NCBI GenBank assembly: GCA_028693235.1
Contig: JAQUVW010000002.1
Coordinates: 379,298-443,297, forward strand
Reading direction: 5' to 3'
Length of the DNA: 64,000 nt
From: Candidatus Gastranaerophilales bacterium
GTDB taxonomy: Bacteria; Cyanobacteriota; Vampirovibrionia; Gastranaerophilales; Gastranaerophilaceae
The notes under the pieces are model-generated. The model was not told the origin of the DNA. It saw only the letters and a program-made list of their open reading frames with translations, and did no database searches. Both the position numbers and the translations under genes were made by a program. Shown here in pieces: positions 49,395-62,834 of the stretch. Position 1 is the stretch's first letter. Every line of letters begins with the position of its first letter.

Positions 49395-52300
49395 TTAAAC
49401 TAAAGCAGGTTCTTTATCTCTGTAGATTTCTATGCTGTTGTATGTTAGGGTTTCGTTTTGGTTGAAGAACTTTAATGCCTCGAGGTACGCACGAGCTGTA
49501 TCTAAGGCTGTAAAACAAGGAGTTGAATACATTTCAGCTATTGTTCTTATTAAGAAACCTCTGTCTTGAGAGCCGTATCTTTTTGGGTCGTTGTTTGTCG
49601 TAGGGGCGTTTATTATGAAGCTTAGTTCTTTGTTTTTCATATTTCGTTGAATTTTTTCGATGTCGAAATTTTCGATTTCTTTAGAGTCAATTCCATATTG
49701 CGATAGGAAGTTATGAGTTCCTGTAGTTGCGATTAGTGTGTACCCCATTTCTGTAAGGGTTTGAGCGACATCAATGCAATCTTTTTTAAAGTGGTCATTT
49801 ATAGAAATCAAAACATTGCCTCTTTTGTTGCTCATTTCATAACCGGCTGCTAAAAATCCTTTTATGAGAGCTTTTTCGTAGGTAGTGTCTATACCGAGGA
49901 CTTCCCCTGTAGACTTCATCTCAGGGGCTAAAGCGGGGTCAATTCTGTTTAGTTTTTGGAATGAGAAGATAGGGACTTTTGCACAAACAAGGTTTGTTTC
50001 TTTAGCGAGTCCTGTTTTGTATCCTTGCTCTATTATTGAGTTTCCGAGGATTGCGTTTATGGCAATGTCGACCATCGGAATACCTGTTACTTTGCTCAAA
50101 ATCGGCACTGTTCTTGAGGCTCTCGGGTTTACTTCAATGACATAGGGAATATTGTCTTTAAGGACAAATTGTATGTTCATTAAACCTTTTATTTGGAGCT
50201 CTTTTGCGATTTTTTCTGTATAAGAGATTAATTTTTCTTTGATTTCATTAGAGAGTTTTTGTGTAGGATAAATTGCAATACTGTCACCGGAGTGTATTCC
50301 TGCACGTTCTATATGCTCTGTTATCGCAGGAATAAGGACATTTTCGCCATCAGAAATTGCATCGAGTTCCATTTCAGAACCTTCAATATATTGGTCAATA
50401 AGGATAGGATGTTTGCCTGAAAATTTCAAAGCATTTTCTATGTAGCTTTCGAGCTCTTTTTTGTTGTAAACAACTTGCATACCACGTCCGCCTATTACGT
50501 AAGATGGGCGAACAAGTACAGGATAACCGAGCTCAAGAGCTTTTTGGCGAGCTTCGTCAATCGTGTAAACGGCACCACCTTTAGGTTGCGGGATATTCAA
50601 TTTTCTCAAAAGTTGTTCAAATAGTTTTCTGTCTTCTGCTATATTTATTGATTCAAGACTGGTTCCGAGTATTTTTACGCCTCTTTTTTCGAGTTTAGAG
50701 GCGAGGTTGATAGCGGTTTGACCGCCAAATTGAACCATAACGCCACTTGGCGATTCTTTTTCAATTATGTTCATTATGTTTTCAATGTACATCGGCTCGA
50801 AAAACAATTTGTCAGCGACGTCGAAATCTGTGCTTAATGTTTCCGGGTTAGAGTTTACTATTATTGATTCGTAGCCGTTTTTACGAACAGACCAGGCAGC
50901 GTGGACGGAACAGTAGTCAAATTCGATGCCTTGCCCTATTCTGATTGGACCTGAGCCTAAAATCATTATGCTGTCTTTTTCGCTGACTTGATTTTCGTCA
51001 AATTCGTTATATGTTGAGTAGTAGTAAGGAGTGTAGGCTTTAAATTCAGCAGCACAGGTGTCCACCATTTTGAATGAGGCTTTTATGTTGTTTTGAGAGC
51101 GAAAATCTTCTATTTCTTTTTGTTCACGGCAAGAGATAGAGGCTATTTCAGAGTCAAGGAAGCCTTTTTCTTTCGCTTCAATGTATAGAGCTTTTGTAAG
51201 TTCTTCTGATTTTAATCTTTGTTCAAAATCGACAAGATTTTTCATTTTGTTGATGAACCACTTATCAATTTTCGTGATTTTGTTTATTTCGTTTACGGAA
51301 ATGCCTCTGCTCAAAGCTTCTGCTACTCTAAAGATTCGCCTGTCGTCTTGGACGTGGAGTAGGGCTTTTAATTCATCTTCACCGCAGTCCATGTGACAGC
51401 CTCTGAGAATCCCTGTAAATTTTGATTCTATAGAGGTTACAGCTTTTTTGAAGGAACTTTCGAAGGTTCTGCCAATTGCCATAACTTCGCCGGTCGCTTT
51501 CATTTTTGTACCGAGGATTCTGTCGCCGTGGGCAAATTTGTCAAAAGGCCACTTTGGGATTTTAGTTACAACGTAGTCTAATGCTGGTTCAAAAGCTGCT
51601 ACGGTTTTTTGAGTTATTGAGTTTGTAATTTCGTGCAGGTTGTAACCGATAGCGATTTTTGTTGTGACTTTTGCTATTGGGTAGCCGGTTGCTTTAGAGG
51701 CTAAAGCTGATGAACGGCTGACTCTGGGATTGACTTCTATTACGTAATATTGGTTGCTTACAGGGTCTAGAGCGTATTGAACGTTGCAACCGCCTTCAAT
51801 TTTTAAGGCTCTGATTATTTTTATGGAGGAGCTTCTGAGCATTTGATATTCTTTGTTTGTTAGGGTTTGAGATGGTGCTACAACATAGCTGTCACCTGTG
51901 TGAATACCGATTGGGTCTATATTTTCCATGTTGCAAATTGTAATGCACGTGTCATTAGAATCACGCATAACCTCATATTCAATTTCTTTGTATCCGGCGA
52001 TACTTTTTTCAACGAGCACTTGGGATATAGGGCTCATAGCAAGTCCTGTGCCGACAATATCTTCGAATTCTTCCATGTTGGAGGCGATGCCACCACCGGA
52101 ACCGCCAAGAGTGTATGCGGGGCGAACTATTATCGGGAAGCCTATTTTTTGAGCGAATTTTTTTGCGTCATCAAAGCTTGAAACGCAGTCGCTTTCTGGG
52201 ATTGGCTCATTTATTTCCATCATGAGATTTTTAAAGAGTTCACGGTCTTCTGCGTTTTGGATAGAGTCTATATTAGTGCCTAAAAGTTTCACATTGTATT

Positions 52301-52628
52301 TGTCGAAAACACCTTGTTCGCTTAGCTCTACAGCGAGGTTTAAACCTGTTTGACCGCCTAGAGTTGCAATTATTCCGTCAGGGCGTTCTTTTTTTATAAT
52401 GAAGGTCAAAGCTTCTATGGTTAGGGGCTCAATGTAGACTTTGTCAGCGATGTCTTCATCGGTCATGATTGTTGCTGGGTTTGAGTTTACGAGGATTACT
52501 TTTAGATTTTCTTCTTTAAGAGCTCTGCAAGCTTGAACTCCAGCGTAATCAAATTCCGCTGCTTGTCCTATCACTATTGGACCTGAACCTATTACAAGAA
52601 CTTTTTTTATATCTAAATTTTTTGGCAT
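49395..52628 (-). CDS. carB: Carbamoyl-phosphate synthase large subunit
   Basis: A 1077-residue CarB. Two ATP-grasp halves are visible: VLVIGSGPIVIGQAAEFDYAG...(first) and IMILGSGPIRIGQGIEFDYCSVHAA (second). The last 130 residues are the allosteric methylglyoxal-synthase-like domain (TLTEMGYTLIATTGTHNFL). It combines bicarbonate, ATP and glutamine-derived ammonia into carbamoyl phosphate. The start overlaps the end of the pyrF-carA gene by 16 bases. Last gene of the operon; the remnant region follows. Confidence 0.96.
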   Translation of the reverse strand: MPKNLDIKKVLVIGSGPIVIGQAAEFDYAGVQACRALKEENLKVILVNSNPATIMTDEDIADKVYIEPLTIEALTFIIKKERPDGIIATLGGQTGLNLAVELSEQGVFDKYNVKLLGTNIDSIQNAEDRELFKNLMMEINEPIPESDCVSSFDDAKKFAQKIGFPIIVRPAYTLGGSGGGIASNMEEFEDIVGTGLAMSPISQVLVEKSIAGYKEIEYEVMRDSNDTCITICNMENIDPIGIHTGDSYVVAPSQTLTNKEYQMLRSSSIKIIRALKIEGGCNVQYALDPVSNQYYVIEVNPRVSRSSALASKATGYPIAKVTTKIAIGYNLHEITNSITQKTVAAFEPALDYVVTKIPKWPFDKFAHGDRILGTKMKATGEVMAIGRTFESSFKKAVTSIESKFTGILRGCHMDCGEDELKALLHVQDDRRIFRVAEALSRGISVNEINKITKIDKWFINKMKNLVDFEQRLKSEELTKALYIEAKEKGFLDSEIASISCREQKEIEDFRSQNNIKASFKMVDTCAAEFKAYTPYYYSTYNEFDENQVSEKDSIMILGSGPIRIGQGIEFDYCSVHAAWSVRKNGYESIIVNSNPETLSTDFDVADKLFFEPMYIENIMNIIEKESPSGVMVQFGGQTAINLASKLEKRGVKILGTSLESINIAEDRKLFEQLLRKLNIPQPKGGAVYTIDEARQKALELGYPVLVRPSYVIGGRGMQVVYNKKELESYIENALKFSGKHPILIDQYIEGSEMELDAISDGENVLIPAITEHIERAGIHSGDSIAIYPTQKLSNEIKEKLISYTEKIAKELQIKGLMNIQFVLKDNIPYVIEVNPRASRTVPILSKVTGIPMVDIAINAILGNSIIEQGYKTGLAKETNLVCAKVPIFSFQKLNRIDPALAPEMKSTGEVLGIDTTYEKALIKGFLAAGYEMSNKRGNVLISINDHFKKDCIDVAQTLTEMGYTLIATTGTHNFLSQYGIDSKEIENFDIEKIQRNMKNKELSFIINAPTTNNDPKRYGSQDRGFLIRTIAEMYSTPCFTALDTARAYLEALKFFNQNETLTYNSIEIYRDKEPALV

Positions 52629-54454
52629 AATTCACTCTCTTTTCTAATATTTTGAATCCAATTTTTAAATATTATATCAGTGTCGTTTGGACCGGGTGCG
52701 GCTTCTGGGTGAAATTGTACTGATTCTAGTTTGTATTTGTCAGATTTAATTCCCTCGATTGTGCCGTCGTTGAGATTTCTGTATGTTACTTCTACGCAAT
52801 CAGGCAGACTCCCGTCTTTTATAGCGTAGCCGTGATTTTGTGCGGTCATAAACACTTTGTTTGATTGAAGGTTTATAACAGGGTGATTTCCGCCTCTGTG
52901 CCCGTATTTGAGCTTGTAGGTTTGAGCACCTGTTACTATTGCTAAAATCTGATGGCCTAAACAAATTCCGTAGAGCGAAATTTTTCCTAACAGATTTTTT
53001 GCTGTTTCTATTGTCTTTGTTGCATCTTTTGGGTCGCCTGGACCATTTGACAATATTACTGCGTCAAATTCTTCCTCTAAAATCACTTTAGAGTCAATGT
53101 CTGCAGGGAAGATAGTTATATCTGCGTTATATTTTTTTAAGTTTTCTATAATACTTTTTTTCGCTCCTAGGTCTATTATGGCGACCTTTACGCCACATCC
53201 AGCTATTTTTTCTTTTTTGTATGTCGAAACCTCAAGAGTTATGTTGTTGCTGACTTTGAATTTTTTTATATTTTCTTTTAATTCACGAGTAATTTCATTT
53301 GTTGTTATTGCACAACTCATATCGCCTGATTCTCTTATTATTTTGGTCAACAAACGTGTGTCGACTTTGTTTAGAGCAATAATGTTGTTTTGTTTGAGGT
53401 AATCAGATATGTTCATAATGCTTTTGTAGTGGCTTTCTTGCGAGCATGCATTTTTCACGATGAGACCTTTTGCCTGAACTTTTCCGCATTCAGAATCCTC
53501 TTTGTTTATGCCGTAGTTCCCGATTTCAGGGTAAGTCATAACTATGATTTGTTCGGCGTAAGACGGATCGGTTAAAATTTCCTGATAGCCGCTCATTGAA
53601 GTGTTAAAAACGATTTCGCCGTAGGCTATTCCTGTGGCACCAATTGATTCTCCTTCAAAAATCATACCGTTTTCGAGGATTAATTTGGCTGTAGAATTCG
53701 GAGAAGATTCATTTTGGGTTAGCATTGTATTTTCGATTTCGTCATAGATTTTTTTCATAGCTTCGACTCTGTTTTCATAGGCTGTTACGGCTCTTCCGAT
53801 GACTAAATAATCGGCACCTTCTTGTATTGCTTTTTTAGGTGTTGCCAATCTTTTCTGGTCGTTTTTTGAAGCCCATTCCGGACGAATTCCGGGGCAAAGG
53901 ACTTTGAAATCTTTTCCGCAGGCTTGTTTTATTCTTCTAGCTTCCCAAACGCTTGCAACCACGCCGTCTAAGGAGCTTTCTTTTGCGAGTTTTGCAAGTT
54001 CTGTTACGTAGTCATTTGATTTTAGGGGCACTTTTAGTTGGTTGTTTAATGTATCATCACTAATGCTGGTGAGGACTGTTACGCCTAGAACTATAGGCTT
54101 TTTTGCACCGATTTCAAGGGCTGTTTTTCTTGCTGAAATTGCTGATTTTCTCATCATTTCAGAGCCACCCATCGTGTGAACATTGTAAAAAGCAGCACCG
54201 TTTCTGATGATATTTTCTGAGGCTTTTGCGACAGTGTTCGGGATATCTAAAAGCTTTACATCAAAGAAAAAATCGATGTTTTGCTCTTTCATAAATTTAA
54301 ATATTTCCCCGCCGTTAGCGGTGTAAAGCTGTAAACCTATTTTAAAAACGCCGACGTAATCTTTAAGCTCCAAAATCATTTCTTTTGCTTTTGATATGTT
54401 GTCAACATCTAGTGCGAGAACGATTTTCTCTTTTATTTTCGGGTCGATTTCCAT
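52613..54454 (-). CDS. pyrF-carA: Fusion protein: orotidine-5'-phosphate decarboxylase (PyrF) - carbamoyl-phosphate synthase small subunit (CarA)
   Basis: A 613-residue fusion. Residues 1-243 are PyrF: VLALDVDNISKAKEM, catalytic FDVKLLDIPNTV (D-x-K-x-x-D type), GVTVLTS, VLCPGIRPEW and VIGRAVTAYENRVEAM. After a short hydrophilic linker (about 244-255) residues 256-613 are CarA: AKLILENGMIFEGESIG, the glutaminase nucleophile in YGICLGHQILAIV, HRGGNHPV, and SVQFHPEAAPGP. There is no stop or ribosome binding site at the junction (near 53725; the Met there is preceded by GAAAATACA). It joins the first-step and last-step enzymes of UMP synthesis. Overlaps pyrC and carB. Confidence 0.92.
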   Translation of the reverse strand: MEIDPKIKEKIVLALDVDNISKAKEMILELKDYVGVFKIGLQLYTANGGEIFKFMKEQNIDFFFDVKLLDIPNTVAKASENIIRNGAAFYNVHTMGGSEMMRKSAISARKTALEIGAKKPIVLGVTVLTSISDDTLNNQLKVPLKSNDYVTELAKLAKESSLDGVVASVWEARRIKQACGKDFKVLCPGIRPEWASKNDQKRLATPKKAIQEGADYLVIGRAVTAYENRVEAMKKIYDEIENTMLTQNESSPNSTAKLILENGMIFEGESIGATGIAYGEIVFNTSMSGYQEILTDPSYAEQIIVMTYPEIGNYGINKEDSECGKVQAKGLIVKNACSQESHYKSIMNISDYLKQNNIIALNKVDTRLLTKIIRESGDMSCAITTNEITRELKENIKKFKVSNNITLEVSTYKKEKIAGCGVKVAIIDLGAKKSIIENLKKYNADITIFPADIDSKVILEEEFDAVILSNGPGDPKDATKTIETAKNLLGKISLYGICLGHQILAIVTGAQTYKLKYGHRGGNHPVINLQSNKVFMTAQNHGYAIKDGSLPDCVEVTYRNLNDGTIEGIKSDKYKLESVQFHPEAAPGPNDTDIIFKNWIQNIRKESELCQKI

Positions 54455-55728
54455 TATGTATTCTCCTCTAAGTTTATAAATTCTCCGTTGATAAAACTTC
54501 CTATTGCTTTACCTTTTAATTTTTTACCTTCAAATGGCGATATTTTACATTTTGATTTAAAGTTTTTTGCATTGACTGTCCACTCCAAATCGGGGTCAAT
54601 TATTGTTAAATTTGCGATTTTTCCTATTTCGATTGTGCCTTGATTTTTCAATTTAAGAATTTTTGCAGGGCTAAATGTCAATTTTTCAATGAGAATAGGA
54701 AGTTCGACCCTGCCTGACAGTGCTAAGGTTAGTGCCAAGGCTGTTTCGAGCCCTACTATACCGAAGGGTGATTCTTCAATAGGTAAATTTTTTTCATAAA
54801 TAGTGTGAGGCGCGTGGTCAGTAGCGATTACGTCTATTGTACCATCTGAAAGCCCCTCTATTACTGCTTCAAGGTCATCTTGCGTGCGAAGTGGCGGATT
54901 CATTTTGAATATTCCGTTTTGGGGATTTATGTCGTTTTCTGTAAGTGTGAAATAATGTGGAGCCGTTTCACAAGTGACTTTTAGTCCTTCTGCTTTTGCT
55001 TTTCTTATCAAATCTATACTTTTTCTTGTGGAAATGTGTGCAAAATGGTATGGGGCTTGGGTTTTTCTGATAATATCAAGCTCTTTAGCTACTGCTGTAT
55101 ATTCTACGGCTGTTGGAATTCCTTTAATTCCATATTTTTTGCTGGTTTCGCCCTCATTTATTGAACCGCCTTGAGAGAGTTCTAAAATTTCAGAGTGTGA
55201 AATTACCAAAACGTCTAAATCCCTTGTATAGCTTAAAATATTTTCTAATAATGTCATGTCTTCAATCGGCTTGCCATCGTTTGAAAAAGCTACTGCTCCA
55301 AGCTTTTTAAGCTCTTTTATGTTTACTATTTTTTCCCCTTGAAGCTCTTTTGTGACGGCACAAACAGGATAGAAGCCTATGCCTTTTGCTTTTTCAGAAG
55401 ATTTGAACATATCTTTTAAGGTTAAAACATTGTCGTTACAGGGTTTTGTGTTTGCCATCGGACAGATGGCGGTGTAGCCTCCTGCAATTGCTGCATTTAT
55501 GCCTGTTTCTATTGTTTCTTTGTCTGTGAATCCGGGTTCTCTTAAATGAGTGTGCAGGTCGATTAAGCCGGGAGTGATTATTTTTCCGCTAAAATCAAGG
55601 ATTATTTCCATTTCATTTGCTTCAATATTTTTTGCGATTTTAGTTATAATTTTGTTTTCTATTCTTATATCTAAAACCTTATCAATGTTGCTTTTAGGGT
55701 CAATTATTCTTGCACCTTTAAGAAGCAT
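54454..55728 (-). CDS. pyrC: Dihydroorotase, class I
   Basis: A 424-residue amidohydrolase. The metal-binding start is GLIDLHTHLREPGFTDKETIETG; KPCNDN, VISHSEILEL, YHFAHISTRKSIDLI and IATDHAPHTIYEK follow. Length fits the class I (Bacillus-type) DHOase rather than the E. coli type. It overlaps pyrB by 11 bases at its start and abuts pyrF-carA by one base at its end. Confidence 0.95.
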   Translation of the reverse strand: MLLKGARIIDPKSNIDKVLDIRIENKIITKIAKNIEANEMEIILDFSGKIITPGLIDLHTHLREPGFTDKETIETGINAAIAGGYTAICPMANTKPCNDNVLTLKDMFKSSEKAKGIGFYPVCAVTKELQGEKIVNIKELKKLGAVAFSNDGKPIEDMTLLENILSYTRDLDVLVISHSEILELSQGGSINEGETSKKYGIKGIPTAVEYTAVAKELDIIRKTQAPYHFAHISTRKSIDLIRKAKAEGLKVTCETAPHYFTLTENDINPQNGIFKMNPPLRTQDDLEAVIEGLSDGTIDVIATDHAPHTIYEKNLPIEESPFGIVGLETALALTLALSGRVELPILIEKLTFSPAKILKLKNQGTIEIGKIANLTIIDPDLEWTVNAKNFKSKCKISPFEGKKLKGKAIGSFINGEFINLEENT

Positions 55729-56647
55729 AAATAGCCTCCTGTTTTTTTGAATTTGCGATTAAATTTAAAATTGCCATTCTGATAAAAACGCCGTTTTGAG
55801 CTTGTTCTAAAATAGTTTTTCCTTTTTCTGAATCAATTAGATTTGAGGTTAATTCAATACCCCTGTTAACAGGTCCTGGATGCATTAATATTGAGTTTGG
55901 GGCATATTGTGCCAGAATTTTTTTATTAATCTGAAAATCTTTTTTATAATCTTCAATATCAAGACCGAAATCCGCCTCAAGTCTTTCTTTTTGTATCCTC
56001 AAAGTCATTACGATATCGGAATCGATAATTGCATCAATCAGGTTTTTGTGAAAAGTTACACCCTCAAAATCTGCTTTTTCAGGCATAAAATATTTCGGCC
56101 CTGCAATATGAATGTCAGCTCCAAACCTGCTTAATAAGGCTATATTTGACTTTGCGACTCTGCTATCTTTTATGTCGCCGACGATTGTGATTTTTTTGTT
56201 TTTGACAGTTCCTAATTTTTCTAGCATTGTAAAATAATCCAAAAGAGCTTGTGTTGGGTGCGAATGGCTTCCTGTGCCTGCGTTTACGAACTTTATATCC
56301 GCTTTAATTTTTCTTTTTATAGTATTGATTATATTGTTTTCGTTGTGACGCAAGACTATTACCTCAACTCCTAGTGCGGTAAGGTTTTCAATCGTGTCTT
56401 CCAATGATTCGCCTTTTGAAAGTGAAGATGATTTTGTGTCGAAAATCGTCGTAATCATATTTAGTCTTTTAGCCGCAATTTCAAAGCTGCAACGGGTTCT
56501 TGTTGAATTTTCATAAAACATCAATGCTACGATTGTGCTTTTCAAATCAGCTTGTAAAAGCCCTGATTTAAAGTCTTGAGCGGTTTTAATGATTAAATTA
56601 ATATTATCATTCGTTAATGATTTTATATCGATTAAATCTTTTAGCAT
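55718..56647 (-). CDS. pyrB: Aspartate carbamoyltransferase catalytic subunit
   Basis: A 309-residue ATCase. ENSTRTRCSFEIAAKRL (carbamoyl-phosphate site), GTGSHSHPTQALLDYFTM, and LMHPGPVNRGIEL (aspartate site) are diagnostic. No pyrI regulatory subunit is in the operon, so it is probably a plain trimer or a PyrC complex. Overlaps pyrE by seven bases at its start and pyrC at its end. Confidence 0.96.
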   Translation of the reverse strand: MLKDLIDIKSLTNDNINLIIKTAQDFKSGLLQADLKSTIVALMFYENSTRTRCSFEIAAKRLNMITTIFDTKSSSLSKGESLEDTIENLTALGVEVIVLRHNENNIINTIKRKIKADIKFVNAGTGSHSHPTQALLDYFTMLEKLGTVKNKKITIVGDIKDSRVAKSNIALLSRFGADIHIAGPKYFMPEKADFEGVTFHKNLIDAIIDSDIVMTLRIQKERLEADFGLDIEDYKKDFQINKKILAQYAPNSILMHPGPVNRGIELTSNLIDSEKGKTILEQAQNGVFIRMAILNLIANSKKQEAIYAS

Positions 56648-57228
56648 TTTGCAAGAACCTTATCATTATTGCGGCTGCCCGGTTTTTCAATGGGGATATT
56701 TTCTTTGCAAAGCGGGCAATTTTCAGCTTTGTAAAGTACCGGAGTCATTTGAATTACGGATTTTATGTCGTAGTCAGTTTTCCCTGCTGTTCTGTCGACG
56801 ATACAGCCTACAGCGACAAGCTCGGCGTCATATTCTTTGATTGCGTCTAACGTTTCATTAATTGTGCGGGCTGTTGTTATCACATCTTCAACTATGACTA
56901 TTCTTTCTCCTCTTTTTAAGCTATAGCCTCGTCTAAGCTCCATTTTTCCGTCTTTTCTTTCGACAAAAAGACTGCGTTTTTTGGCTTGTTTGGCGGTTTC
57001 GTAGCCCATTATTACTGCACCTACGGCAGGTGCTATAATTGTGTCAAAATCAAGCGTGGAAAGTTTTTCTGCTAATGATTTTGCAATTTTTTCTGTGATT
57101 TCAGGATATTGATATAGTTTTGCACATTGAAAATATGTATCAGAATGTAATCCAGAAGTAAGGCAGAAATGTCCTTTTAGCATTCCTTGAGTTTCTTTTA
57201 GAAGGTCTAAAGCCTCGTTATTATTCAT
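56641..57228 (-). CDS. pyrE: Orotate phosphoribosyltransferase
   Basis: A 195-residue phosphoribosyltransferase. The PRPP motif is IVIVEDVITTARTINETLDAI, with FVERKDGKMELRRGYSLKRGE upstream. The C-terminal CPLCKENIPIEKPG adds two cysteines after the usual fold. It transfers ribose-5-phosphate to orotate; PyrF (in the fusion) then decarboxylates the product. Overlaps pyrD by eight bases. Confidence 0.94.
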   Translation of the reverse strand: MNNNEALDLLKETQGMLKGHFCLTSGLHSDTYFQCAKLYQYPEITEKIAKSLAEKLSTLDFDTIIAPAVGAVIMGYETAKQAKKRSLFVERKDGKMELRRGYSLKRGERIVIVEDVITTARTINETLDAIKEYDAELVAVGCIVDRTAGKTDYDIKSVIQMTPVLYKAENCPLCKENIPIEKPGSRNNDKVLAKC

Positions 57229-58162
57229 TTATAGCTCCTTTCAAATTTGTTTTTAATTCTTTAATATTTTTAAATCCGTTTTTGCTCATAAAGCTCTGGA
57301 GGTCCGCTATTATTGACTCTGAAATGTCAGGGTGAGTAAAATTTGCAGTTCCTATTTGAATTGCGTCTGCTCCTACTGTAAAAAATTCTAATACATCTTG
57401 CAATTTTGAAATTCCGCCCATTCCGATTATCGGAATATCGACAGTTTTGCTCAGACGAAATACAGCACCAAGGGCGATTGGTTTTATTGCTTCTCCTGAA
57501 AAACCTCCTGTAACCATTTCCTTTTGAAATTTTCCATTTGAAAAAGTCAACTTTAGCCCCAATCCTTTAACAGTATTAATGGCTGAAATAATGTCTGCAC
57601 CTGCTTTTTGAGCGGCTATACCTATTTTTTCGATTGAAGTTACATTGGGAGTTAGCTTGACAATCAGTGTGCCTGAAAATTCGTTTCTAACTCGTTTTAC
57701 CAAATTTTCGAGAGTTTTTTCGTCTGTTCCAAATTCCAAACAGCCGGATTTTACATTCGGGCACGACACATTTAGTTCAATTGCTTTGAGGTCGTTTTGT
57801 TCAGACATTTTAGCCAGCTCTACATATTCGTTTTCGTCAGCTCCTGCCATGTTCATAATAAATTCAATATTTTTTTCTTTCATCATAGGAACTTTCTCCT
57901 CGAAAAACCTTTCTGCTCCAAGGTTTTCAAGCCCTATTGAGTTAATAATTCCGCTTTTTACTTCAATAAGACGATTTGTTTTGTTCCCTTCTCTCGGTAG
58001 TAGTGTGACAGCTTTTGTCACCACTGCACCAAGTTTTTTTACATCGACAAAGTCTTCAAATTCGTCGCCAAATCCGAAGGTTCCTGACGCAGTCAAAATA
58101 GGGTTTTTTAGCTCAAGTCCGTTTAAATTTACGCTTAAGTCAGCTTTTTCAATTGCTACCAT
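57221..58162 (-). CDS. pyrD: Dihydroorotate dehydrogenase, class 1B catalytic subunit
   Basis: A 313-residue FMN enzyme. NPILTASGTFGFGDEFED, catalytic Cys in IELNVSCPNVKSG, INTVKGLGLKL and IPIIGMGGI are typical. With the adjacent pyrK it makes an NAD-linked class 1B enzyme, suited to anaerobic growth. Overlaps pyrK by seven bases. Confidence 0.95.
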   Translation of the reverse strand: MVAIEKADLSVNLNGLELKNPILTASGTFGFGDEFEDFVDVKKLGAVVTKAVTLLPREGNKTNRLIEVKSGIINSIGLENLGAERFFEEKVPMMKEKNIEFIMNMAGADENEYVELAKMSEQNDLKAIELNVSCPNVKSGCLEFGTDEKTLENLVKRVRNEFSGTLIVKLTPNVTSIEKIGIAAQKAGADIISAINTVKGLGLKLTFSNGKFQKEMVTGGFSGEAIKPIALGAVFRLSKTVDIPIIGMGGISKLQDVLEFFTVGADAIQIGTANFTHPDISESIIADLQSFMSKNGFKNIKELKTNLKGAINE

Positions 58163-58929
58163 ACTACCTCCTCGCCTTTAAAAACCGGTCCGTCCTTACA
58201 AACAGTTGCGTTTTGCTCCTTGCCGTTTTTGATAATTCTAATTACGCAGCCTCTACATACTCCGATTCCGCAAGCCATAACTTTTTCCATCGCTATTTGT
58301 GAAGCAATATGGTGCTTTTGTGCGAGTTGAGCGGTTTTTTGTAAGACTATTCTCGGTCCGCAGGCATAAATAATTTTTGGTTTGTAATTTTCTATTATTT
58401 CTTCAAGGTAATCAACAACGCTTCCTTTTTTGCCGAAAGAGCCGTCGTCTGTAAAAATACAGCCAAGGTCAAATCTTTGTGGGATATCACTTTTAGATGA
58501 AAAACCAGAATACATTTTGTAATCAATATTTAATTCTTCAAGTTTATTTTTCATATAAAAAATAGGAGCGACACCAACGCCTGCTCCTATTAACAAAGAT
58601 TTTTCGTTTCGGATATTAAATCTATTGCCTAAAGCTCCAATAAAATCGATATTATCTCCGACAGTCAGGCTTTTTATGAATTTTGTTCCTTCACCTTTTT
58701 CTTTAAAAAGAACGCCTATTCTGTCCTGCTTGTTGAAAGCAATGCTGAATGGGCGTCTAAGGCTTAAATTGTTACATAAAATCGATACGTATTGACCAGG
58801 GTTGGAAAAAAATGGCTTTTCTGTTTCAAATTCAATGTAATGAGTGTTTTTTGAAACCTGCTCTATCCTCGTAACCGAGCCTTTATGCGACTTCGTCGCT
58901 CTTATATTTTTTTCTTTTTCTTTTAACAT
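58156..58929 (-). CDS. pyrK: Dihydroorotate dehydrogenase electron-transfer subunit PyrK
   Basis: A 257-residue ferredoxin-reductase-like subunit. LRRPFSIAFNKQD binds FAD; LLIGAGVGVAPIFYM binds NAD; CGIGVCRGCVIRI with a fourth Cys in ATVCKDGP holds the [2Fe-2S] cluster. It heads the pyr operon, preceded by GAGGA, and passes electrons from PyrD to NAD. The first 15 residues are an N-terminal extension not needed for the fold. Confidence 0.93.
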   Translation of the reverse strand: MLKEKEKNIRATKSHKGSVTRIEQVSKNTHYIEFETEKPFFSNPGQYVSILCNNLSLRRPFSIAFNKQDRIGVLFKEKGEGTKFIKSLTVGDNIDFIGALGNRFNIRNEKSLLIGAGVGVAPIFYMKNKLEELNIDYKMYSGFSSKSDIPQRFDLGCIFTDDGSFGKKGSVVDYLEEIIENYKPKIIYACGPRIVLQKTAQLAQKHHIASQIAMEKVMACGIGVCRGCVIRIIKNGKEQNATVCKDGPVFKGEEVVW

Positions 58930-58943
58930 TTTGTCCTCATAAT

Positions 58944-58998
58944 CTCTTGCGTTTCGGTCTTGCTCTTCGCAAGCCCTTTAGCCTCTGCTCGCAATCCG
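58944..58998 (-). repeat. Degenerate REP-like palindromic element in the pyr leader
   Basis: On the minus strand the segment starts GGATTGCGAGC and ends ACGCAAG, with an inner hairpin CTTGC/GCAAG. It resembles the dispersed GTCATTGCGAG...GAAGCAATC palindromes found in many bacterial genomes. Related fragments occur at 60095 and 63908. It lies between the attenuator terminator and pyrK. Confidence 0.4.
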
Positions 58999-58999
58999 T

Positions 59000-59030
59000 A
59001 AAAAAGGGAAAACAAAAAGTTTTCCCTTTT
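59000..59030 (-). terminator. Leader terminator (attenuator) of the pyr operon
   Basis: On the minus strand AAAAGGGAAAA (59030 to 59020) ... the loop CTTTTTG ... TTTTCCCTTTT (59012 to 59002) followed by a T run to 59000. The left arm starts at the stop codon of the 13-codon leader ORF, so a ribosome there would prevent the hairpin from forming. Confidence 0.75.
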
Positions 59031-59070
59031 AAAATCTATATTCAATTGTGCTTGACAATCTTTTTTTCAT
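59029..59070 (-). CDS. 13-residue leader peptide of the pyr operon
   Basis: Encodes MKKRLSSTIEYRF with GAGGA at 59075-59079, a good ribosome binding site five bases from the ATG. The stop codon overlaps the left arm of the downstream terminator hairpin. This arrangement is analogous to E. coli pyrBI, where coupling of a ribosome to UTP-sensitive RNA polymerase abolishes termination; the sequence is too short for a track entry. No pyrimidine-codon bias or amino acid run is needed in that mechanism. Confidence 0.6.
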   Translation of the reverse strand: MKKRLSSTIEYRF

Positions 59071-59096
59071 TTTTTCCTCAAATTTAATCTTGTATT

Positions 59097-59125
59097 ACGA
59101 TAATAGCTCTACTTGAAAAAGTCAA
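59097..59125 (-). promoter_or_regulatory. Promoter of the pyr operon
   Basis: On the minus strand TTGACT (59125-59120), 17-base spacer, TATCGT (59102-59097). The start would fall near 59090, about 20 bases before the leader-peptide ATG. The 291-base divergent gap between pyrK and the gene at 59222 holds this, the leader peptide, the attenuator and a REP-like fragment. Confidence 0.5.
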
Positions 59126-59221: not shown

Positions 59222-59605
59222 ATGTCTATAGGCTTTAGTTCAGGCTCTGGCTTGTCGCCTCAAGATTTGAAGGTAGAAAATCAAAAACGATATAAAGACG
59301 TTTATGCTCACGAACTCGCTCATAAGTCTAAAGCAGGCTCGTTGGGCGGTGGTATTGTTATCGACAAAGATGGTTCGGGGCTAATTACCGGTGGGCATGT
59401 TGATATCAAAATGCCTGGTTTGAACAAGACAAAACCTGAATTGACAATAAAACAAGCTCAACAGGTCATTGATTCGGCTATGGCTCCTTCTGACCCTTCT
59501 GCTCAAGATTACAAAGTCGCTGCAGAGGCTCGCAGTGTCCTTGCTATGGCTAATGATGAGGCTAAAAACAAACAATCCGGCAACAAGCTTGATATCATGG
59601 GGTAA
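59222..59605 (+). CDS. Small SprA-related putative metalloprotease (HELAH motif)
   Basis: A 127-residue protein with HExxH in YAHELAHKSKAGSLGGG, followed by IDKDGSGLITGGHVDIKMPG, the arrangement of SprA-related/CJM1_0395-type putative zinc metalloproteases. It lacks a signal peptide. The third zinc ligand and any proteolytic activity are not evident. Ribosome binding site GAAGG. A hairpin follows before the rhodanese gene. Confidence 0.6.
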   Translation: MSIGFSSGSGLSPQDLKVENQKRYKDVYAHELAHKSKAGSLGGGIVIDKDGSGLITGGHVDIKMPGLNKTKPELTIKQAQQVIDSAMAPSDPSAQDYKVAAEARSVLAMANDEAKNKQSGNKLDIMG

Positions 59606-61412: not shown

Positions 61413-62639
61413 CTATTTTGTACGTGAGGCAAGGTTGCTTACTATATCAGCAGGGGTGACGTTGTGTTTTGCCATAAATGTGAGCACAAAGTATGCAAGG
61501 TCACTTGCTTCCCATTCTAAGCCGTCGCCGCATTCAGGGTTTACGGTTTCAAATGCTTCTTCCATTATTTTTCTTTTTAGGTAAAATTCGTTTTTAAATA
61601 ATTTTGTTGTAAACGAACCCTCCGGCAAATTCTCTTTTCTGTCTAAAAGCAAGTCATAGAGTTCGTTTATGCAGAACATTTTGTCTTCAAAACAAGAAAA
61701 TCTTTCAAGGTGACAAGCATTTCCTTTTTGATTGACTTGGAAAAGCAATGCGTCTTGGTCGCAGTCAAATTTAGCATTCACAAGTTCTTGAGTATTACCG
61801 CTTGTAAGCCCTTTTGTCCATAATTCTTTTCTCGAACGGCTGTAATATGTACCTAAACCTTCTGAAAGTGCTTTCTTTAAAGATTCCGGGGTTGAGTATG
61901 CTAACATCAAAACTTGTTTTGTTTTTATATCTTGAACAATTGTCGGAATTAATCCGTCTTGCTTTTCAAAATCCATTACGGCACAAAAAGCGTCTTCAAG
62001 TTTTACCGCATTAGTGTAGATGCACATTCCGAGCTGCGTTGACACGTTCATCTTAACAAGTTCTTTTATCTCGTCAACAGAAGAAATTCCGCCGGCTGCG
62101 ATAAGTTCTTTTTTCGTTAATTTGCGAATTTTTTTGATAGCTTCAAGGTTTGTACCCTTCATCATTCCTTCGTTTTCAACGATGGTATATAAATATCCTG
62201 AGCATAAGTCGTCAAAACGCTTTACAAAGTCCTCGGGGGTGGAATTTACTTCTTTTGTCCAGCCTTCAGTGGTTACTTTCCCGTTTTTAGCGTCGATTGC
62301 AACTATCACTTTATCCTTTGGAAGCTGGGCTAAAAATTCTTCATCAGCAGCTGTTCCGATTATGATTTTTTTAGCTCCCAATGCAAGCATTTTCTTTGCT
62401 TTATCTCTTGTTCTTATCCCTCCTCCGACTCGGCAATGGGCTATTTGGCAAATTCTTCTTATTAATTCTTCGTTTTCGCCTTTTCCCATTGCAGCATCAA
62501 TGTCGATAACCGCAATTTCTCCGAAACGAGAATAATATTTTGCTAATTCAAGAACATCTTCACGTTCTAAAACTTTTTCTTTGCCTTGCTTTAGTTGAAC
62601 AGCTTTCCCATTCATCAAGTCAATACTAGGAATAATCAT
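61413..62639 (-). CDS. hisA-hisIE: Trifunctional HisA-HisI-HisE fusion
   Basis: A 408-residue protein. Residues 1-222 are a HisA-type TIM barrel (catalytic Asp7 in PSIDLMNGKAVQLKQG, Asp116 in VAIDAKNGK, GGGIRT, AAGGISSVDEI); the usual T-D-I-x-R-D-G segment reads YTIVENEGMMKG, so Asp is replaced by Glu157. Residues 225-317 are HisI (YYSRSRKELWTKGLTSGN; DCDQDALLF; CHL; SCF). Residues 322-408 are HisE (PEGSFTTKLF, EEAFET, LEWEASDLAYF). The ATG at 62639 follows GGAG; the open frame extends 57 bases further. The order HisI-HisE with hisD after it resembles fungal HIS4. Confidence 0.92.
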   Translation of the reverse strand: MIIPSIDLMNGKAVQLKQGKEKVLEREDVLELAKYYSRFGEIAVIDIDAAMGKGENEELIRRICQIAHCRVGGGIRTRDKAKKMLALGAKKIIIGTAADEEFLAQLPKDKVIVAIDAKNGKVTTEGWTKEVNSTPEDFVKRFDDLCSGYLYTIVENEGMMKGTNLEAIKKIRKLTKKELIAAGGISSVDEIKELVKMNVSTQLGMCIYTNAVKLEDAFCAVMDFEKQDGLIPTIVQDIKTKQVLMLAYSTPESLKKALSEGLGTYYSRSRKELWTKGLTSGNTQELVNAKFDCDQDALLFQVNQKGNACHLERFSCFEDKMFCINELYDLLLDRKENLPEGSFTTKLFKNEFYLKRKIMEEAFETVNPECGDGLEWEASDLAYFVLTFMAKHNVTPADIVSNLASRTK

Positions 62640-62834
62640 ATTTTCTCCAATCTTTATTGTCTGGCTCCATTGTACCTCAAAAATCGTCCTTTTCAAATCC
62701 TAGTGGCTATATATCTTTGCTAAAATTCTACCCAAGAGGCTAGTAGAATTATGTTCGCAGGCATGGGATAAATAAGTTGTTGATTTACTCCCCTTTATAT
62801 ATATGATAAATACAAGTAACCAAAGGAGTCACTT

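Follow-up and report, generated by a model that had tools for sequence, protein, structure and literature searches.

A probable ribosome-coupled attenuator in front of the pyrimidine operon of Gastranaerophilales

How might a bacterium with its genes for UMP synthesis packed into a single cluster decide when to express them? The question is raised by a 64,000-nucleotide stretch of DNA from a Candidatus Gastranaerophilales bacterium (here called the window), in which a short open reading frame (ORF) and a terminator-like hairpin precede a run of pyr genes. UTP-sensitive, ribosome-coupled attenuation is the textbook case from the pyrBI and pyrE genes of E. coli, and a literature search of limited reach found no report of pyr attenuation in Gastranaerophilales or Melainabacteria. 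We argue below that the leader controls the whole UMP operon by ribosome-coupled attenuation of transcription in response to pyrimidines, a reading to which we give a probability of roughly 70%.

The genes that would be controlled all lie on the minus strand. The first is pyrK (58156 to 58929; Pfam PF10418 and PF00970), for the electron-transfer subunit of dihydroorotate dehydrogenase, followed with a 7-nt overlap by pyrD (57221 to 58162; PF01180). Next come pyrE (56641 to 57228; PF00156), a phosphoribosyltransferase gene named by its position and overlapping pyrD, then pyrB (55718 to 56647; PF02729 and PF00185), which overlaps pyrE, and pyrC (54454 to 55728; PF01979 and PF12890), which overlaps pyrB. 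A pyrF-carA fusion (52613 to 54454), with PF00215, PF00988 and PF00117 inside one ORF, leads with a 16-nt overlap into carB (49395 to 52628; PF02786 and PF02787), the last gene of the operon. Because successive ORFs overlap, pyrK-D-E-B-C-[F-carA]-carB looks like one transcript that carries all of the functions for UMP. The earlier note on this DNA had counted eight catalytic activities under one switch; the eight gene functions are indeed there, but they are encoded by seven ORFs and make up six steps to UMP. As to the fusion itself, among the loci checked 28 give a single match that spans pyrF and carA, and 55 have the two as separate neighbours. Another apparent fusion, for histidine biosynthesis, lies elsewhere in the window (ORF 61413 to 62696, minus strand); judged by eye from its translation, it starts like HisA and ends like HisI/HisE.

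The leader elements are all found on the minus strand, at the coordinates first reported and in the order promoter, Shine-Dalgarno motif, ORF, terminator hairpin and pyrK. The -35 element, TTGACT (59120 to 59125), is also the commonest -35 sequence among the leaders of relatives, and it is separated by a 17-nt spacer from the -10 element, TATCGT (59097 to 59102), in whose place the relatives have TATAAT, GATAAT or CATAAT. The Shine-Dalgarno motif GAGGA (59075 to 59079) precedes a leader ORF of 13 codons plus TAA (59029 to 59070; MKKRLSSTIEYRF*), which begins with an ATG at 59070 and ends with its stop codon at 59031-59029. That stop codon overlaps the left arm of a predicted intrinsic terminator hairpin (59000 to 59030), the putative attenuator, which has a 12-bp stem, a loop of five U residues, an all-pyrimidine right arm and a U run; the left arm is AAAAGGGAAAAC (59030-59019), the loop TTTTT and the right arm GTTTTCCCTTTT (59013-59002), after which the U run extends to 59000. 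The ATG of pyrK, at 58929, follows 71 nt past the U run. Every element that the earlier note had read from this leader, from TTGACT-17-TATCGT and GAGGA to the 13-codon ORF, the stop on the left arm of the terminator, the T run and pyrK, is thus present in the sequence. When the leader is folded it yields the terminator hairpin, and the whole leader is moderately more stable than shuffled versions of itself (z = -2.6). The adjoining gene, at 59222, faces away, and since the hairpin therefore sits in a divergent intergenic region, it is not the 3' terminator of another gene.

Could such an arrangement have come together by chance? Sequence upstream of pyrK was collected from 125 genomes of three families (f1, f6 and f7), and a terminator-type hairpin was found there in 119 of them; of the six misses, three turn out on visual inspection to have the layout, and in the remaining three the usable upstream sequence is insufficient. 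In 104 of the 116 testable leaders an ORF opens with ATG or GTG 30-52 nt ahead of the hairpin core and has its stop at the hairpin, compared with 17.4 expected from dinucleotide shuffles, and with a Shine-Dalgarno-like motif added to the ORF the count is 78 of 116 against 4.4 expected. The ORF-to-hairpin layout is seen in 19 of 20 genera, a level of counting that matters in that sequences within one genus are not independent. Promoters with at least 10 of 12 matches precede 51% of 110 leaders and 4% of shuffles; a spacing of 17 nt is the most frequent, and the distance from the -10 element to the ATG is mostly 21-22 nt. A promoter scan of the window by itself was not above chance (1 found, 1.6 expected), so that the window promoter, though unconvincing alone, is credible because it is conserved in relatives. 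The layout is also specific to its place. It is found once in the 64-kb window, a search of 464 kb of the genome (20 stretches and the window) returned nothing else except one spurious match, and nearly all matches in 909 kb of the relatives' loci are the pyr leader. In two further families of the same order (f2 and f3), pyrK is present and the leader was not found upstream of it.

In an alignment of the window with genus g41, 3 of 8 stem pairs are changed on both sides. Covariation across genera is limited, in that the hairpins do not align and the cross-genus set is too divergent for a consensus structure. In g41 (L054, L056 and L062), long GC-rich repeats (GCGTAGGGTGAAATCGAGCGAAGCGAGTG...) are also found between the attenuator and pyrK; they stretch that gap to several hundred bases and leave the attenuator intact. 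On these comparisons, the predicted attenuator is conserved and real, not a product of chance. An ORF lost in relatives that keep the hairpin, an outcome that would have counted against the proposal, was looked for and not seen; the ORF is retained across about 20 genera. The same numbers bear on the idea that the hairpin is a mere mRNA-stabilizing element at the 5' end, or a weak constitutive terminator, and the ORF incidental to it. It is difficult to reconcile that idea with an ORF six times commoner than expected and fixed in position relative to the hairpin, and we consider it quite unlikely.

What is it about the leader ORF that has been kept? Lengths in the relatives are mostly 9-15 codons, with 12 the most frequent. 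In 65 leaders (about half) at most 5 nt separate the end of the stop codon from the hairpin core that follows, and in 103 the stop falls between -15 and +17 nt relative to the core; a few reading frames continue into the hairpin or right across it. The encoded peptide is another matter, since position and length are conserved and sequence is not. The amino-acid composition of the leader peptides is that expected from base composition, and synonymous changes are in weak and inconsistent excess, present in g41 (66 compared with 42.8 expected), g27 and g30 and absent in g36. The conserved feature of the ORF thus appears to be its position, with only weak conservation of peptide sequence.

This pattern speaks against classical attenuation of the trp/his type, in which stalling of a ribosome at regulatory codons lets an antiterminator form. 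The trp and his leaders do share with the present one a short leader ORF, translated there and proposed to be translated here, followed by a terminator. However, no enrichment of regulatory codons and no conserved run of them was found in the leader ORFs, and the pathway substrates Asp and Gln are actually depleted in the peptides, to 0.67 and 0.36 of expectation. Nor did the leader folds reveal any competing antiterminator structure: until the right arm has been transcribed, the left arm of the hairpin stays largely single-stranded (median pairing 0.22). Finally, the stop codon is too near the terminator: it lies within 5 nt of the hairpin, where amino-acid attenuators keep the two more than 20 bp apart (PMC4824070). 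Amino-acid attenuation is therefore hardly credible here.

A stop codon at the hairpin fits instead the logic of pyrBI and pyrE. Where a terminator lies a few bases past a stop codon, the ribosome represses it and leaves it nearly silent, and the folding of a hairpin requires 10-15 nt of free RNA (PMC4824070). Distances between ribosome and polymerase are 25-26 nt for complexes in contact, 26-34 nt for collided complexes and 41-47 nt for factor-coupled ones (PMC10953045). From the stop codon to the end of the U tract, the median distance is 36 nt in the leaders and 32 nt in the window; this falls within 25-47 nt, so a ribosome following closely could still occupy the stop codon when polymerase reaches the point of release.

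The simplest proposal is as follows. Polymerase would start about 20 nt upstream of the short ORF, whose stop codon lies on the terminator's left arm. With pyrimidine nucleotides plentiful, it would complete the hairpin ahead of the first ribosome, and transcription would stop. With UTP (and CTP) scarce, polymerase would slow at the last leader codons, in the U-rich loop and along the all-pyrimidine right arm; a ribosome at the stop codon would meanwhile cover the left arm so that the hairpin could not close, and polymerase would then continue through pyrK-D-E-B-C-[F-carA]-carB. The putative signal (UTP and CTP), the predicted termination at the hairpin and the presumed translation of the ORF are all three deduced from sequence. 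Within those bounds, the pyrBI-like, translation-coupled attenuation suggested in the earlier note is the best reading, with the position of stop relative to hairpin conserved and the peptide and its codons not.

Where would pyrimidines be sensed? Ahead of the hairpin the leader is rich in A (52% A, 29% T) and lacks a U-rich pausing region, its longest pyrimidine run there having a median of 3 nt. The hairpin is quite different in composition. Its right arm and tail make up one unbroken pyrimidine run, generally 13-16 nt long. In the window this run is 13 nt, and the last 20 nt are 95% pyrimidine; across relatives, the genus medians of the run are 10.5-16.5 nt, and the median is at least 13 nt in 19 of 20 genera. 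The run is longer than in 53 control terminators of the same genome, drawn from the 20 stretches and the window (464 kb; control median 7, p = 7e-10), and longer than in terminators of the relatives (control median 10, p = 2e-6), a conservative comparison, since a number of those controls are the same hairpin read on the opposite strand. U makes up 75% of the last 20 nt in leader hairpins and 55% in controls. After the ribosome-binding site has been exposed, polymerase has about 5 U additions to make before the hairpin and about 15 in the loop, right arm and tail. This concentration of U residues suggests that the pyrimidine sensor is located in the terminator itself, perhaps in its loop, right arm and tail. 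Two other ideas about the leader were rejected, namely that the left arm acts as a Shine-Dalgarno-like element (the motif is in only 22 of 110 left arms) and that transcription is reiterative at the start site (no conserved U or C run is seen at the presumed start).

In a toy kinetic model with assumed rates, moderate UTP limitation raised readthrough from 0.12 to 0.45 and severe limitation lowered it again, because in the model the ribosome leaves before the slow polymerase escapes. If the model is a fair guide, sensing inside the hairpin would require a long dwell of the ribosome, or its re-loading. The lack of a simple monotonic response to UTP lends something to the main rival explanation, which holds that the attenuator is ribosome-coupled but follows translation capacity (initiation rate, ribosome availability or growth state) rather than pyrimidines specifically. 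The same anatomy would suffice for such a device, and an A-rich leader is in keeping with it. On the other hand, a general sensor would have no need of an all-pyrimidine right arm, a feature uncommon in this genome's other terminators, and the layout stands in front of pyr, with just the one spurious match elsewhere in 464 kb. We regard a translation-capacity sensor as unlikely, if worth keeping in mind, and return to the pyrimidine-responsive attenuator.

The proposal also dispenses with a regulatory protein. Attenuation by PyrR, an RNA-binding regulator, is common for the pyr operons of Gram-positive bacteria, and this makes PyrR, or some other riboswitch-like RNA, an obvious candidate; the Bacillus-type systems share with the present proposal transcription attenuation of a pyr operon. 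Unlike those systems, the locus has a leader ORF, no PyrR over the cut-off and no Rfam match. The earlier note had reported no PyrR-binding loop, and our searches agree with it: an Rfam scan of the leader gave no match at the gathering threshold, and a permissive scan only a 13.8-bit chance match. As for the protein, none of 59 genomes has a PyrR over the curated cut-off, and the best match in this genome scores 26 bits against a cut-off of 138. One relative (G011, locus L157) has a protein that scores 78.5 bits with the PyrR model, below the cut-off and well above all others. Beyond the hairpin, moreover, the leaders share no conserved primary sequence. We judge a PyrR-type or riboswitch-like mechanism to be very improbable.

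How close, then, is the likeness to E. coli? As in pyrBI, with its leader ORF pyrL, there is a promoter, a leader ORF that reaches an intrinsic terminator, pyr genes downstream and no regulatory protein. In pyrBI the position of the ribosome decides termination, and by analogy we propose the same logic here. In the E. coli case, a template that calls for U slows polymerase when UTP is low, which allows the ribosome to catch up (PMC10135430). The differences are nonetheless considerable. At 44 codons, E. coli pyrL extends over the entire terminator, whereas the ORFs here have mostly 9-15 codons and usually stop at the left arm; the few relatives' frames that enter or cross the hairpin resemble pyrL. 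The pyrimidine-rich tract of pyrL (GTTTTTCTTCCCG) lies upstream of the hairpin, while here the tract is in the hairpin and the upstream leader is A-rich. The pyrimidine-sensing half of the proposal, which we infer, would therefore differ in detail from pyrL, with the U-rich stretch in the loop and right arm. The pyrBI attenuator, moreover, controls one enzyme, as against all steps to UMP here.

The rph-pyrE system of E. coli provides a second comparison. There, the distance from stop codon to hairpin sets the expression of the pyr gene, and as in the present leaders a reading frame ends near a terminator. The rph-pyrE leader is a full protein gene (rph), however, in place of a short ORF, and in MG1655 65 nt separate the annotated rph stop from the U-tract end, compared with 32 nt here. 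Taken as a whole, the scheme would be a distinct one, in which the terminator itself is the sensor, its all-pyrimidine right arm slowing polymerase at low UTP/CTP just where the hairpin would be closed. An ORF of 9-15 codons would bring the ribosome onto the purine-rich left arm, no protein regulator would take part, and the full UMP pathway would be controlled across the lineage; we advance this fuller version tentatively, at somewhat less than even odds.

The operon is by no means universal in the family. Of 383 family genomes, 124 have a pyrK of this type and 259 do not, and sampled genomes that lack it almost always lack a detectable pyrB as well. Because pyrK and pyrB are absent together in those genomes, the family members without pyrK are probably pyrimidine auxotrophs, and gut Gastranaerophilales have likely lost pyrimidine synthesis more than once.

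In those that retain the pathway, UMP synthesis would probably be switched on only under pyrimidine shortage. A compact form of the attenuator in about 20 Gastranaerophilales genera, placed before a complete UMP operon, would point to repressor-free repression having arisen, or having been maintained, in bacteria remote from the enterobacteria. With more than 100 natural variants that differ in stop-to-hairpin distance and in the length of the pyrimidine run, models of coupling could be put to the test. The arrangement would also imply tight coupling of transcription and translation in the mostly uncultured Gastranaerophilales and, if the proposal is true, a single switch governs the entire UMP pathway in these non-photosynthetic relatives of cyanobacteria.
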